Below are positions 57,368 to 63,453 of a stretch of 63,453 nt of DNA, in pieces. Position numbers and translations under genes: made by a program. The DNA is from Deltaproteobacteria bacterium (lineage in GTDB: Bacteria > Myxococcota > Myxococcia > Myxococcales > 40CM-4-68-19). A model generated the notes under the pieces. The model was not told the origin of the DNA, ran no database searches, and worked only from the letters and a program-made list of their open reading frames with translations. The stretch is taken from contig VBLC01000070.1 of assembly GCA_005879315.1 (NCBI GenBank), forward strand, positions 1 to 63,453. Reading direction: 5' to 3'. How positions within the stretch are numbered: position 1 is the first letter of the stretch; every line of letters begins with the position of its first letter.

Positions 57368-58675
57368 ATGTTCCGCGCGCCCATTGCAATTGTTCTCTGC
57401 GCGGCGGCGGTGCGCGCCGAGCCGCAGCCCGCTTCCGAGTCGGCGCCACAGCTGCCGCCGGTCCTGACCCTGCAGAAGGCGCTGGAGATCTTCCGCCAGC
57501 GCGGCTTCGACCTGCTCGTCGCCGAGGCCAGCATCCTCTCGGCCGAGGGCGATGTGACCATCGCCGGCGCGCTGCCCAACCCTGGATTGTCTTTCTCGGC
57601 AGGGAAGAACTTCCAGTGCTCCAGCTCGCAGGACTGCAGCGTCATCTCCTACAGCGTCGGCGTGAGCGACAACGACCTCGTCTCGAACTTTCTCACCGGC
57701 AAGCGCGGGCTGCGCAAGGACCTGGCTCGGGCCGCGCTGCAGGCCGCGCGCCGATCGCGCGACGACGCGCAGCGCACGCTCGAGTTCACCCTCAAGCAGA
57801 GCTGGTACCAGGCCCTGGCGGCCGCCGCGCAGCGCGAGGTCGCGCGCGAGAACCGCGACAGCTTCTTGCGCACGCGGCAGCTCGACGAAAAGCGCTTCGA
57901 GCTCGGGGCGATGAACGAGGCCGATCTCGCCACCATCCAGGTGGCGCACCTCGAAGCGGAGCAGGCGCTCGAGACCGCCGAGCAGAGCCTGCGCGCCGCG
58001 AAAGTGGCGGTGGCATTCCTGCTCGGCTTCCGCCGGCTGATCCCCGACTTCGCCGTCGATCAGAAGGATCTCGACTTCGCGCTGCCGGGACCGGTCGCGG
58101 CGGCGACGCGCGAGGCGCTGCTCAAGGATGCTCTGGAGCGCAGGCCCGACCTGGCAGCGCTGACGCAGCAGGTGGAGCGCGCCGACTCCGCCTTGCGTCT
58201 CGCCCGGCGAAACGTCTTCCCGGACATCGGCCTGGGCATCACCTATTCGGCGAACGGGAGCGGCGACAGCAACATTTCGCCGCCGAACGGCTCCATCAAC
58301 ATCTTCTTCGCGCCGCCCCTTCTCTATTTCCAGAGCGGAGAGATCCGCAAAGCCGAAGCGGATCTCGTCACCCAGCAGATCCTGCGACAGAAGGCCGAGG
58401 CGGTCGTGGTCTCGGACGTCGAGACCGCCTGGGGACAATTGCAAGCGACCCGCAAGCTCGTCGAGCGCATGCAGGCCTCGCTGCTCGAGCGGGCAGAAAG
58501 AGCTCGCAACCTGGTGCAGGTGCAATACGAAAAAGGCGCCGCCTCGCTGCTCGACCTGCTCAACGCGCAGCGCACGTACACGGCCACGCGCGGTGAGTAC
58601 GCGCAGGACCTGGCCAGCTACTGGATCGCCGTCAGCCTGCTCGAGCAGGCGACGGCGCGGGGGCTCAAGTCATGA
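57368..58675 (+). CDS. TolC-family outer membrane efflux protein (CusC/CzcC type)
   Basis: 435 residues with signal (MFRAPIAIVLCAAAVRA). Two repeats of the outer-membrane-factor helical pattern, with NPGLSFSAG, LKQSWYQALAAAAQREVARE and a second part NVFPDIGLGITYSANGSGDS. Forms the trimeric outer membrane channel. The GTCATGA end overlaps the adaptor start by four bases. Confidence 0.92.
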   Translation: MFRAPIAIVLCAAAVRAEPQPASESAPQLPPVLTLQKALEIFRQRGFDLLVAEASILSAEGDVTIAGALPNPGLSFSAGKNFQCSSSQDCSVISYSVGVSDNDLVSNFLTGKRGLRKDLARAALQAARRSRDDAQRTLEFTLKQSWYQALAAAAQREVARENRDSFLRTRQLDEKRFELGAMNEADLATIQVAHLEAEQALETAEQSLRAAKVAVAFLLGFRRLIPDFAVDQKDLDFALPGPVAAATREALLKDALERRPDLAALTQQVERADSALRLARRNVFPDIGLGITYSANGSGDSNISPPNGSINIFFAPPLLYFQSGEIRKAEADLVTQQILRQKAEAVVVSDVETAWGQLQATRKLVERMQASLLERAERARNLVQVQYEKGAASLLDLLNAQRTYTATRGEYAQDLASYWIAVSLLEQATARGLKS

Positions 58676-60894
58676 GGGCCGCTCATCTCTGCCTCGCTCT
58701 CTCGCTCGTCGCCGGCTGTCGCCGCGGCGCAAGCGCAGAGCCGGGGCCGCCCGAAGACGAGAAATGGATCGCCCGCGCGGTCTTCGACCGCGGCGAAGCG
58801 AAAGTGGTGGAGGCGAAGCCGCAGCTGATCGCCTCGCCCATCGCCACCGGAGGGCGCATCGCCTTCGATGACCAGCGCGTGACGCACGTCTTCTCGCCGG
58901 TCAGCGGCCGGGTCACGCGCGTCATCGCCCAGCTCGGCCAGCGCGTGCAGAAGGGTTCCTCGCTGCTCGCCATCGCCTCGCCCGAGGTGGGCAGCGCGGT
59001 CTCCGACGAGGTCAAGGCGCGCGCCGACCTGGTCGCCGCGCAGCACGAGTTCGATCGGCAGCAGAGGCTGTTCGACGCCAAGGCTGGCCCGCGGCGCGAC
59101 CTGGAAGTGGCCGAGGACAACTACCGCAAGGCGAAAGCCGAGGAGGAGCGCGCCTTGCAGCGGCTGCGCCTTCTCCGCGCGGGCAGGGTGGACGCCGTCA
59201 CGCAGGAGTACACGCTCATCAGCCACATCGACGGCCGGGTGATGGCGCGCAACGTGAATCCGGGGATCGAGGTGCAAGGGCAGTTCTCCGGCGGCTCTCC
59301 CACCGGCGAGCTCTTCACCATCGGCGACATCGATCGGGTCTGGCTCTTCGCCGACGTCGCCGAGAGCGACCTGCCGGAAGTGCGGCCCGAGGCGGCCATC
59401 AAGGCGCGCGTGCTCGCCTATCCCGATCGGCTCTTCGACGGCCGGGTCGAATGGGTGAGCCCGACGCTCGACCCGGCGCTCCGCACGGCGCGCATCCGCT
59501 GCTCCTTGTCCAACCCGGAGGGGCTGCTCAAGCCGGAGATGTTCGCCAGCGTGCTCATCGCGCGGCCGGCGCTGATGAAGCTGGCGCTGCCGCGCGAGGC
59601 GGTGGAGCGCATCAACGACCATGACTTCGTCTACCTGGCCGCCGGAGCGCGGACCGACGGCAAGCTCGTCTTCAAGCGCCGGCTGGTGGACACCCCGCCG
59701 ACGACGCTCGGTCCGCGCGATCGGCGCGCGCGGCTTGCGTCGGAAGTCTTCGTCCCCGCCGGGGGGCTTGACGCCGAGACGGTTCCCATCCTCTCCGGCC
59801 TGGCGGAAGGCGAGAAGGTGCTGGTCGCTCCCGCCCAGGCGCGCTTGCGCGGTCCGGACGAGGCCTCTCTCACCGACGAGCAGTTCGCGCGAGGCAAGGT
59901 CGTGACCGTCCCCGTGCAGGAGCGCGAGGTGGCCGATGTGCTCACCGTGGGTGGCCGGCTCGCCTTCGACGATCTGCGCGTCACGCACGTCTTTCCGCCG
60001 GTGAGCGGCCGCATCACGCGCCTTCTCGCGGCGCCCGGCCAGCACGTCAAGAAGGGATCGCCGCTCGCGATCATCCTCTCGGCCGATCTGGGCAGCGCCT
60101 TCTCCGACGAGCTGAAGGCCAAGGCCGACCTGATCGCCGCCGAGCATGAGCTGAAGCGGCAGCGCGAGATGTTCGAGGTGCACGCGACTGCCGAGCGCGA
60201 CCTGCAGATCGCCGAGGACAACCACAACCGCGCCAAGGCCGAATACCAGCGTGCGACCGAGAAGACCCGCCTCCTGCGCGCGGGCGCGCTCAATTCCGTC
60301 ACGCAGGAGTTCGTCCTGCGCAGCCCGATGGAAGGCGACGTCATTGCCCGCAACGCGAATCCGGGGCTCGAGGTGCAGGGGCAATACACGGCCGGCGGCA
60401 GCGTGCCGGAGCTCTTCACCGTAGGCAGCATCGACGACTTGTGGCTCCTGGGCGACGTCTACGAAGCCGATCTCCCCTTCGTGCGGGTGGGCGCGGAAGT
60501 GCAGCTGCGCGTCTCGGCCCATCCGGGCAGGAACTTCCGCGGCCGCGTGGACTGGATCTCCGACACCCTCGATCCCGTGCTGCGCACCGCGAAGGTCCGC
60601 TGCGTACTGAAGAACGAGGAGGGCCTCTTGCGGCCGGAGATGTACGAGGTGGTGACCATCGCCGCCCCCGCGCGGCGCGCGGTGACCGTGCCGCGGGATG
60701 CTCTCTTGCGCCTCGGCGACGAGATCGACGTCTTCGTCGAGCAGCCGCGCACGAACGACGGCCGCGTGACCTTCCGCCGCCGCGCGGTGGTGGCCAACGA
60801 GCGGTTCCCGGGCGACGAGGTTCCGGTGCTGGCGGGGCTGCAACCCGGCGAGCGCGTCGCGGCACGCGGCTCGATCTTCCTGGTCGGGAACTGA
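58672..60894 (+). CDS. RND periplasmic adaptor, tandem double-length fusion
   Basis: 740 residues, twice the usual adaptor length, one uninterrupted frame. Lipobox LVAGC (Cys16). Two complete adaptor units: GGRIAFDDQRVTHVFSPVSG at about 60 and GGRLAFDDLRVTHVFPPVSG at 427, period about 367 residues. Each has a barrel-sandwich, an alpha-hairpin (KARADLVAAQHEFDRQQRLF / KAKADLIAAEHELKRQREMF) and a beta-barrel domain (AYPDRLFDGRVEWVSPTLDP / AHPGRNFRGRVDWISDTLDP). Adaptors work as trimers of dimers, so a covalent dimer fits. The second unit lacks its own signal or lipid Cys. Confidence 0.92.
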   Translation: MRAAHLCLALSLVAGCRRGASAEPGPPEDEKWIARAVFDRGEAKVVEAKPQLIASPIATGGRIAFDDQRVTHVFSPVSGRVTRVIAQLGQRVQKGSSLLAIASPEVGSAVSDEVKARADLVAAQHEFDRQQRLFDAKAGPRRDLEVAEDNYRKAKAEEERALQRLRLLRAGRVDAVTQEYTLISHIDGRVMARNVNPGIEVQGQFSGGSPTGELFTIGDIDRVWLFADVAESDLPEVRPEAAIKARVLAYPDRLFDGRVEWVSPTLDPALRTARIRCSLSNPEGLLKPEMFASVLIARPALMKLALPREAVERINDHDFVYLAAGARTDGKLVFKRRLVDTPPTTLGPRDRRARLASEVFVPAGGLDAETVPILSGLAEGEKVLVAPAQARLRGPDEASLTDEQFARGKVVTVPVQEREVADVLTVGGRLAFDDLRVTHVFPPVSGRITRLLAAPGQHVKKGSPLAIILSADLGSAFSDELKAKADLIAAEHELKRQREMFEVHATAERDLQIAEDNHNRAKAEYQRATEKTRLLRAGALNSVTQEFVLRSPMEGDVIARNANPGLEVQGQYTAGGSVPELFTVGSIDDLWLLGDVYEADLPFVRVGAEVQLRVSAHPGRNFRGRVDWISDTLDPVLRTAKVRCVLKNEEGLLRPEMYEVVTIAAPARRAVTVPRDALLRLGDEIDVFVEQPRTNDGRVTFRRRAVVANERFPGDEVPVLAGLQPGERVAARGSIFLVGN

Positions 60895-60895
60895 G

Positions 60896-63453
60896 ATGAT
60901 CCGCAGAGTCGTCGACCTCGCGCTGCGGAACCGCGTCATGATCGCGGCGCTGGTGGCGATCCTCTTTTTCGCCGGGCTGGCCGCGTACCGCCGGCTCGAC
61001 GTCGAGGCATATCCCAATCCAGTGCCGCCGCTGGTCGAGGTCATCTCGCAGCCGCCCGGCTGGAGCGCGGAGGAAACGGAGCGCTACGTCACCCTTCCGC
61101 TGGAGATCGGGCTCTCGGGAATGCCCGGCCTCGATCACATCCGCTCGCAGTCGCTCTTCGGGCTGACCGACGTCAAGTGCTACTTCAAATGGGGCACGGA
61201 TTACTGGGCGGCGCGGCAGGAAGTGATCAATCGCCTGCAGTTCATCACGCTGCCCACCGGCGTCACCGCGCAGCTCTCCCCCTGGAACTCGATCGGCGAG
61301 ATCTTCCGCTACAATCTGCGCAACGCGCCCGGCTACTCGTATTCGCTGCTCGATCTCAAGACTGCCGAAGACTGGATCATGGAGCGGCAGTGGAAGCAGG
61401 TGCCGGGCGTCATCGACGTGACCAGCTTCGGCGGCCTGACCAAGGAGTACCACGTCGAGGTCGATCCCTATCTCTTGCGCGCGCGCGGCGTGACCCTGAC
61501 GCAGCTCTCGCAGGCGCTGGCCAACGCCAACCAGAACGTCGGCGGCCAGCGCGTCACGCTCGGAGCGCAGGCCTATACCGTGCGCGGCATCGGGCTCATC
61601 GGCTCGCTCAAGGACATCGAGGACGTGGTGGTCGTCGAGCAGAAGGGAATTCCCGTCCGTGTGCGCGATGTAGCCAAGGTCTCCATCGGCCATGCGCCCC
61701 GGCTGGGGACCGTCGGCCGCGACGACGAACCCGACGTGGTGCAGGGCACGGTTCTCATGCGGTACGGCGGCAAGACCGACGAGACGCTCGAGGGCGTGTA
61801 CCAGAGGCTCAAGTACATCCGCGACAACCACCTCTTGCCGCCGGGCATGGAGATCGTGCCGTATTACGACCGCAGTGACCTGATCTCTCGCACCACACAT
61901 ACAGTGATCGAGAACCTGCTCATCGGCATGGGGCTCGTGACCGTCGTGCTGATCCTCTTTCTCGGCAACTGGCGCGCCGCCCTCATCACTGCGGTGAACA
62001 TCCCGCTCGCGCTGCTCATCGCCATCATCGGGCTGGTGCTCTCCGGCACCTCCGCCAACCTCATCTCTCTCGGCGCCATCGACTTCGGCATCGTCGTGCA
62101 CTCGACCGTGATCATCGTGGAGAACATCTTCCGCCACCTGAGCGACAAGGGCGATGGGCCCATCGGAGACCGCATTCGCAGCGCCGTCTCCGAGGTGGGC
62201 AAGCCGATGGCCTTCTCCACCGTGATCATCGCGGTCTCCTTCCTGCCGCTCTTCACGATGACGGGCGTCGCCGGAGTGATCTTCGCGCCCATGTCGTACA
62301 CCTATGCGCTCGCCATCGGCGGCGCCATCGCGCTGGCGCTCACCTTCACGCCAGTGCTCGCGTCGAGATTCCTGCCAGCGCCGATCGAGGAGAAGGAAAG
62401 CCGGCTCATGCGCGCTCTCCACCGCATCTACGATCCGCTCTTCGAGGCCGCTGTTCGGAATCCGAGGCGAGCGATTCCGCTGCTGCTTCTCCCCGTCCTC
62501 GCCTGCATCGCGCTCTTCCCGCTGCTCGGTCGGGAATTCATGCCCAAGCTGGAGGAGGGCAACTTCTGGATCCGGGCCACCCTGCCGCAGTCCATCTCGC
62601 TCGAGGAATCGGCCAAGCACGTGGGCAGCATGCGGCAGATCATCCGCAGCCATCCTGAGATCATCACCGTCACCTCGCAGCTGGGCCGGCCGGACGATGG
62701 GACCGACGTGACGGGCTTCCACAACATGGAGTTCTTCGCGCCGCTCAAACCGTTCGACGAATGGCCGCGCGGGCTCGACAAGGAGAAGCTGACGAAGATC
62801 CTCCAGCAGCAGCTGCAAGACGAGTTCCCCGGCGTGATCTTCAATTTCGCCCAGTACATCTCCGACAACGTCGAGGAAGCCCTCTCGGGCGTCAAAGGCG
62901 AGAACAGCGTCAAGATCAATGGCCCGGAAGTAAAGAGCAACGAGGCGACCGCCGACGCGATCGTCGGCGTAATGGGAAAAGTGCGCGGCATCGATGATCT
63001 CGGGCTGCTCCGCTCGATGGGGCAGCCGAGCATCAAGATCGTTCCCGACCGGACCCAGTGCGCGCGTTACGGGCTCAACACCGGCGACATCCAGATGGTG
63101 GTGCAGGCGGCGATCGGTGGGCAAGCCGTCAGCCAGGTCTTCGAGGGCGAGAAGAGCTTCGCGCTAACCGTACGCTGGCTGCCGCAGTACCGGAGCGACC
63201 TTTCCGCGCTCCGGCGGATCACCGTCTCCTCGCCGGACGGCAGCCAGATCCCGCTCAGCCAGCTCGCCGCCATCACCACCGAGGACAGCCCCAACGTCAT
63301 CTATCGCGAGGACGGCCGGCGCTACACGCCGGTGAAGTTTTCCGTGCGCGGACGCGATCTCGCTTCGACTATCGAGGAAGCGCGGCAGCGCATCGAAGAG
63401 GCGGTGCGACTCCCGCCCGAGACCAACCTCATCTGGTCGGGCGAGATCAACGA
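60896..63453 (+). CDS. CzcA/CusA-family RND efflux permease (partial)
   Basis: 852 codons visible, C-terminus beyond the window. Heavy-metal RND subfamily: VVDLALRNRVMIAALVAILF at the start, RRLDVEAYPNP, QPPGWSAEETERYV, TLPLEIGLSGMPGL, and TM4 GAIDFGIVVHSTVIIVENIF. Here residue 402 is His (62099-62101) where most CzcA-type pumps carry Asp in DFGxxVD, the proton-relay position; Asp396 and Glu409 remain. Late domain features EFMPKLEEGNFWIRATLPQS. One base after the adaptor gene. Confidence 0.93.
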   Translation, partial: MIRRVVDLALRNRVMIAALVAILFFAGLAAYRRLDVEAYPNPVPPLVEVISQPPGWSAEETERYVTLPLEIGLSGMPGLDHIRSQSLFGLTDVKCYFKWGTDYWAARQEVINRLQFITLPTGVTAQLSPWNSIGEIFRYNLRNAPGYSYSLLDLKTAEDWIMERQWKQVPGVIDVTSFGGLTKEYHVEVDPYLLRARGVTLTQLSQALANANQNVGGQRVTLGAQAYTVRGIGLIGSLKDIEDVVVVEQKGIPVRVRDVAKVSIGHAPRLGTVGRDDEPDVVQGTVLMRYGGKTDETLEGVYQRLKYIRDNHLLPPGMEIVPYYDRSDLISRTTHTVIENLLIGMGLVTVVLILFLGNWRAALITAVNIPLALLIAIIGLVLSGTSANLISLGAIDFGIVVHSTVIIVENIFRHLSDKGDGPIGDRIRSAVSEVGKPMAFSTVIIAVSFLPLFTMTGVAGVIFAPMSYTYALAIGGAIALALTFTPVLASRFLPAPIEEKESRLMRALHRIYDPLFEAAVRNPRRAIPLLLLPVLACIALFPLLGREFMPKLEEGNFWIRATLPQSISLEESAKHVGSMRQIIRSHPEIITVTSQLGRPDDGTDVTGFHNMEFFAPLKPFDEWPRGLDKEKLTKILQQQLQDEFPGVIFNFAQYISDNVEEALSGVKGENSVKINGPEVKSNEATADAIVGVMGKVRGIDDLGLLRSMGQPSIKIVPDRTQCARYGLNTGDIQMVVQAAIGGQAVSQVFEGEKSFALTVRWLPQYRSDLSALRRITVSSPDGSQIPLSQLAAITTEDSPNVIYREDGRRYTPVKFSVRGRDLASTIEEARQRIEEAVRLPPETNLIWSGEIN

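Follow-up and report, generated by a model that had tools for sequence, protein, structure and literature searches.

The window, i.e., the whole stretch of 63,453 nucleotides that was analysed, ends in three genes that make up one tight operon on the forward strand, in the order channel-adaptor-permease (Table 1). The channel gene overlaps the start of the adaptor gene by 4 bases, and a 1-base gap separates the adaptor gene from the permease gene. The adaptor gene reads from ATG to stop with no internal stop codon, and its product consists of two complete adaptor units of the HlyD/CusB-CzcB type in one chain.

Table 1. Genes and protein parts at the efflux locus (positions in the window; aa, amino acids; MP, membrane-proximal domain)
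Feature	Position	Strand	Length or residues	Remarks
Outer-membrane efflux channel	57368..58675	+	435 aa	OEP/TolC family
Fused double periplasmic adaptor	58672..60894	+	740 aa	Lipoprotein
Signal peptide and lipobox	58672..58719	+		LVAGC, predicted lipidated Cys16
Adaptor unit 1	58756..59835	+	aa 29-388	MP, lipoyl, hairpin, beta-barrel
Unit 1 helical hairpin	58981..59178	+	helices 104-135 and 141-169	Tip R129, R132, L133, P140
Linker joining the units	59836..59877	+	aa 389-402	
Adaptor unit 2	59878..60891	+	aa 403-740	MP, lipoyl, hairpin, beta-barrel, C-terminal tail SIFLVGN
Unit 2 helical hairpin	60082..60279	+	helices 471-503 and 505-536	Tip R496, E499, M500, A507
RND permease	60896..63453	+	first 852 aa	CusA/CzcA (heavy-metal) type, runs off contig end

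An earlier note on this DNA had described two adaptors joined head to tail in one polypeptide with a period of about 367 residues, and this description was borne out by several lines of evidence. In a self-alignment, residues 29-383 matched residues 396-729 at an offset of 367 with 171 of 334 residues identical (51%); the score of this alignment was 841, while 200 shuffled sequences reached at most 64. Profile searches gave two matching stretches each for the Pfam family HlyD_D23 (PF16576; E 6e-82 for the whole protein, 274 bits, cut-off 30) and for the NCBIfam profile RND_mfp TIGR01730 (225 bits, cut-off 94.9). The CzcB/NccB subfamily profile TIGR00999 was matched at 225 bits, below its cut-off of 319, so the protein is not filed as CzcB and is best seen as its relative. 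The nucleotide sequences of the two units are 62% identical (55% at third codon positions), which rules out a recent tandem duplication or a mis-joined repeat. The junction between the units contains neither a stop codon nor a second signal peptide, and the only lipobox of the protein is the N-terminal one, with nothing comparable before unit 2. The predicted lipid anchor, recognized by its motif at Cys16, would thus serve the whole chain, as unit 2 lacks a separate anchor.

The partner permease is, judging from profile scores, a member of the CusA/CzcA class. The full-length permeases of fused-adaptor orthologues score 822 and 823 bits against TIGR00914 (cut-off 701), the window's copy, shortened by the contig end, scores 681 bits, and the nearest solved structure is ZneA. 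At the positions aligned with the methionine triad of CusA (alignment read by eye), the permease has Ile, Asn, and Glu, and for this reason divalent metals are more likely substrates than copper or silver, metal export itself being the substrate class that these sequences suggest. The remaining, C-terminal part of the permease was found at the end of another contig of the same genome (C44, locus L108); this contig end and the window end at 63453 overlap over about 890 bases, in which 287 of 295 residues agree. The assembly break inside the permease gene seems to come from strain variation. At 62099-62101, the proton-relay position of permease TM4 is His (CAC, in the context DFGIVVHSTV). Related permeases in which this motif was read carry Asp or Glu where the window's copy has His, and CAC is one base away from an Asp codon; the His may be a real variant or altered copy, or a consensus error.

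A false merger of two neighbouring adaptor genes through an error in assembly or sequencing, which the earlier note had named as the finding that would overturn its reading, has next to no probability left. The draft genome comprises 125 contigs and shows strain variation where the window's contig ends, and a related pump in the locus L047 does have its two adaptors as a pair of genes. Against such an error, however, full-length fusions that are likewise in frame and have a similar linker occur in six other loci (L011/L040, L012, L013/L041, L014/L042, L015/L043, and L078), i.e., in independent assemblies, one of which (L041) is the isolate genome of Anaeromyxobacter oryzisoli SG63. The fused orthologues comprise L040 (61%), L078 (64%), L012 (53%), and L041 (52%), as well as L042 and L043. 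In the genome G080, the locus L082 leaves its contig after a unit 1 and L081 begins inside a unit 2, and together these are probably a seventh other fusion, split over two contigs. This genome, to which L078 belongs as well, apparently has two double-adaptor pumps, which fall on the two main branches of the double clade, one on each. The linker measures 14-20 residues in all doubles, the lipobox Cys is invariant in the six doubles that were aligned, and in none of them does a signal peptide precede unit 2. In total, the fusion was found in 7 of the 195 genomes searched in the phylum, the window's genome included. Outside the phylum, single-length adaptors only were found among the top 2-3 candidates scored per genome in 297, 398, and 296 genomes, samples drawn from the phyla of three loci named Acidobacteriota, Burkholderiales, and Hymenobacter. 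For plasmids, the best 12 tblastn places were about 1 kb, i.e., of single length, and included no fused adaptor.

Tripartite RND pumps are currently described as assemblies of three permease, six adaptor, and three channel subunits in which the adaptor dimer is the functional unit (PMC4446572, PMC4338810), and a fused dimeric AcrA complements (PMC4446572). For the window's protein, a single-chain structure prediction was of moderate overall quality (pLDDT 74, pTM 0.50); its domain content is usable and the relative placement of the two units is not. In the predicted model, each unit has its own hairpin (104-169 and 471-536) among lipoyl, barrel, and membrane-proximal strands, both chain ends of each unit are predicted to sit in the MP domain, and the linker region is partly low in confidence. 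In structural comparisons, unit 1 aligned to ZneB (3lnn), and unit 2 to CusB (3ne5), MacA, and AcrA.

Taken together, it is quite probable that the gene encodes a covalent, CzcB/ZneB-like adaptor dimer for its own heavy-metal-type RND pump, with three chains forming an alternating ring of six units. One lipidated polypeptide would supply two full units, and the short linker would run between neighbouring membrane-proximal domains. Three such chains would then build the ring of six units that sits between the trimers of permease and channel, giving a stoichiometry of 3:3:3 in chains and 3:6:3 in units. Units 1 and 2 would be forced to alternate round the ring and, of the two non-equivalent sites of each protomer, each unit would be fixed to one; this stoichiometry, the alternation, and the assignment of units to sites are inferred. 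The gene order, the independent second adaptor of the L047 pump, and a solved adaptor chain of double length (6vej) speak for the covalent dimer; against it count the His at the proton-relay position of the window's permease and the number of columns that separate the units, which is no larger than that between clades of single adaptors. The claim of the earlier note that the gene locks the dimer is supported by the linker of 14-20 residues, by chain ends that are predicted to lie in the MP domain, and by the functional fused AcrA (PMC4446572); by analogy with the latter and with TriA/TriB, locking of the dimer is well supported and is the best reading. Cutting of the chain in the periplasm, which would release a lipidated unit 1 and a soluble unit 2 that work like TriA and TriB, is improbable. 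The linker is short and partly of low model confidence, and adaptor pairs encoded by separate genes do exist (L047), but unit 2 would lose its membrane anchor, there would be little to explain why the fusion has persisted over such a time, the linker length is conserved, and no common cleavage motif was seen in the linkers by eye.

The covalent dimer resembles several known systems, and differs from each of them. The nearest solved relative is the HME-RND adaptor ZneB/CzcB (3lnn), which shares the domain order and the single hairpin and whose permease ZneA is the nearest to the window's partner permease, but has one unit per polypeptide where the fused adaptor has two per chain. In an alignment read by eye, a ZneB histidine that acts as a zinc ligand stands opposite Phe603 of unit 2. 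The entry 6vej, an adaptor chain of double length (695 aa) that was solved with its RND permease and whose name lists two adaptors, was present among the sequence matches only and absent from the structural matches listed; judging from its name, it is presumably an artificial counterpart of the fused gene. In TriABC-OpmH of P. aeruginosa, a single RND pump likewise works with two homologous adaptors that differ from each other, and TriA and TriB are natural hetero-adaptors (PMC13328181), but these are encoded by separate genes, are 36% identical, and serve a drug pump, in contrast to the natural fusion of 51% identical units in a metal-type pump. The fused AcrA-AcrA constructs of Xu et al. (2011; see PMC4446572) are also covalent adaptor dimers working in a tripartite pump; they are engineered and have identical units, whereas the fused adaptor is natural. 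In DSY0927 of Desulfitobacterium hafniense, two adaptors are likewise naturally joined in a single polypeptide (PMC4338810, PMC4446572). This protein, however, joins two unlike adaptors, i.e., an MFS-type half without coiled coil and an RND-type half, and belongs to an ABC transporter of a Gram-positive organism (PMC4338810). Adaptor fusion as such is therefore already known, and the homologous double of an RND pump is a new variant; in the literature searched, outside of which most subscription papers lie, no paper was found that describes two full homologous adaptors naturally fused for a channel-coupled RND pump.

The earlier note had further suggested that the units may have specialised for different sides, one for that of the permease and the other for that of the channel, and this division found no support in that form. 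Every domain is kept in both units, as is the R...L motif of the hairpin tip, in which the arginine is present in every sequence of both units and the second position is L, M, or I. Only 9 of 314 columns discriminate unit 1 from unit 2, and just as many set either unit apart from a single-adaptor clade, so the units do not show a general excess of divergence from each other. Specific to unit 1 are four columns only, at residues 132 (tip), 230 (barrel), and 319 and 384 (both MP). At residue 132, beside the tip leucine, unit 1 has R/Q/T and unit 2, like nearly all near single adaptors, has E/D, a contrast that is weaker against distant single adaptors; at barrel residue 230, A/G/N in unit 1 contrast with Y/F/H in unit 2 and in almost every single adaptor. 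Since the columns specific to unit 1 fall at both ends of the unit, any split of work would not be one unit per membrane side, and unit 1 is at most mildly specialised, as far as these columns can indicate.

Two further readings concern the work of the individual units. That a single unit works in the pump and the other is a decaying passenger appears unlikely, although unit 1 does evolve somewhat faster: its dN was higher than that of unit 2 in all three close pairs (0.36/0.24, 0.30/0.24, and 0.34/0.32), and it was the less identical unit in 16 of 21 orthologue pairs. Against decay, the numbers of invariant columns are close (81 in unit 1, 84 in unit 2), entropy is similar (p 0.14), domains and tip residues are intact, and both units are under purifying selection (dN/dS about 0.3-0.4). 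A split of work, by which one unit activates the permease and the other holds the channel, would come on top of the covalent dimer and is compatible with it. It has a precedent in what has been proposed for TriA and TriB in TriABC (PMC13328181), and it is unit 1 alone that has lost the acidic tip residue (R132 against E/D) and the barrel aromatic (A230 against Y/F/H). The discriminating columns are few, however, and equal in number to the differences from a single-adaptor clade, the changes in unit 1 lie at both ends, and the channel groove motifs show no matching change, with one weak co-varying column as the only signal when compared with the double adaptor; such a split is conceivable and somewhat doubtful. 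Returning to the covalent dimer, its stronger form, i.e., a hard-wired alternating ring with covalently fixed sites, the first in a channel-coupled Gram-negative RND pump, in which the tip and barrel of unit 1 have changed for its own site, stands at slightly under an even chance.

The questions whether adaptors act as dimers, and whether the two adaptor positions of a tripartite pump have distinct jobs, have so far been approached mostly through engineered fusions and TriABC. Within a myxobacterial group, the two adaptors have remained joined across deep divergence, and if the covalent dimer is correct, the dimer that structural biologists engineered exists there naturally. The fused family would then be an evolutionary version of the fusion experiment, in which the dimer is maintained by selection and the positions are permanently assigned, and in which one position at a time could be mutated without subunit mixing.

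The history of the fusion was assessed in a tree of 40 units, in which every unit 1 falls into one clade (98/95) and every unit 2 into another (97/99), each unit clade having a single origin. The inner branching of the two clades is largely mirrored, and the permeases that partner the doubles form one clade (100/99) in matching order. Because of these three clades and the mirrored branching, a single old duplication/fusion is indicated, and the simplest reading of the trees would be one old joining of two adaptor genes followed by joint vertical descent within Myxococcota. Unit 1 and unit 2 clades appeared as sisters in one tree (85/64) and not in the 40-unit tree, and constraining them together was not rejected (p-AU 0.39). 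A recent internal duplication in the window's genome was rejected when its two units were held together (p-AU 3e-5), and single adaptors from the genus and family to which the window belongs fall into a clade of their own.

The L047 pair (L047:5920-8245, Myxococcales MAG BP9.bin63) belongs to the same pump family and likewise has two adaptors between channel and permease, but these are separate lipoprotein genes, each with its own signal peptide, in contrast to the window's fused adaptors. The two genes are each other's sisters (100/99), and the pair was rejected as the unfused ancestor, with p-AU below 0.001 for a placement of gene A among the unit 1s or of gene B among the unit 2s. As this duplication is independent of the fusion, a second adaptor was gained at least twice in the pump family. 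Two orphan copies were also observed. In an Acidobacteria MAG, an adaptor (L055:1801-2778) joins the unit 1 clade on a long branch; channel and permease were not found on its 5.5-kb contig, and the copy is possibly decaying. In the window's own genome, contig C65 carries an orphan lipoprotein of 217 aa (L002:1495-2148, reverse strand) that is without lipoyl and hairpin parts, has no RND gene beside it, and resembles an adaptor in its barrel and MP domains only.
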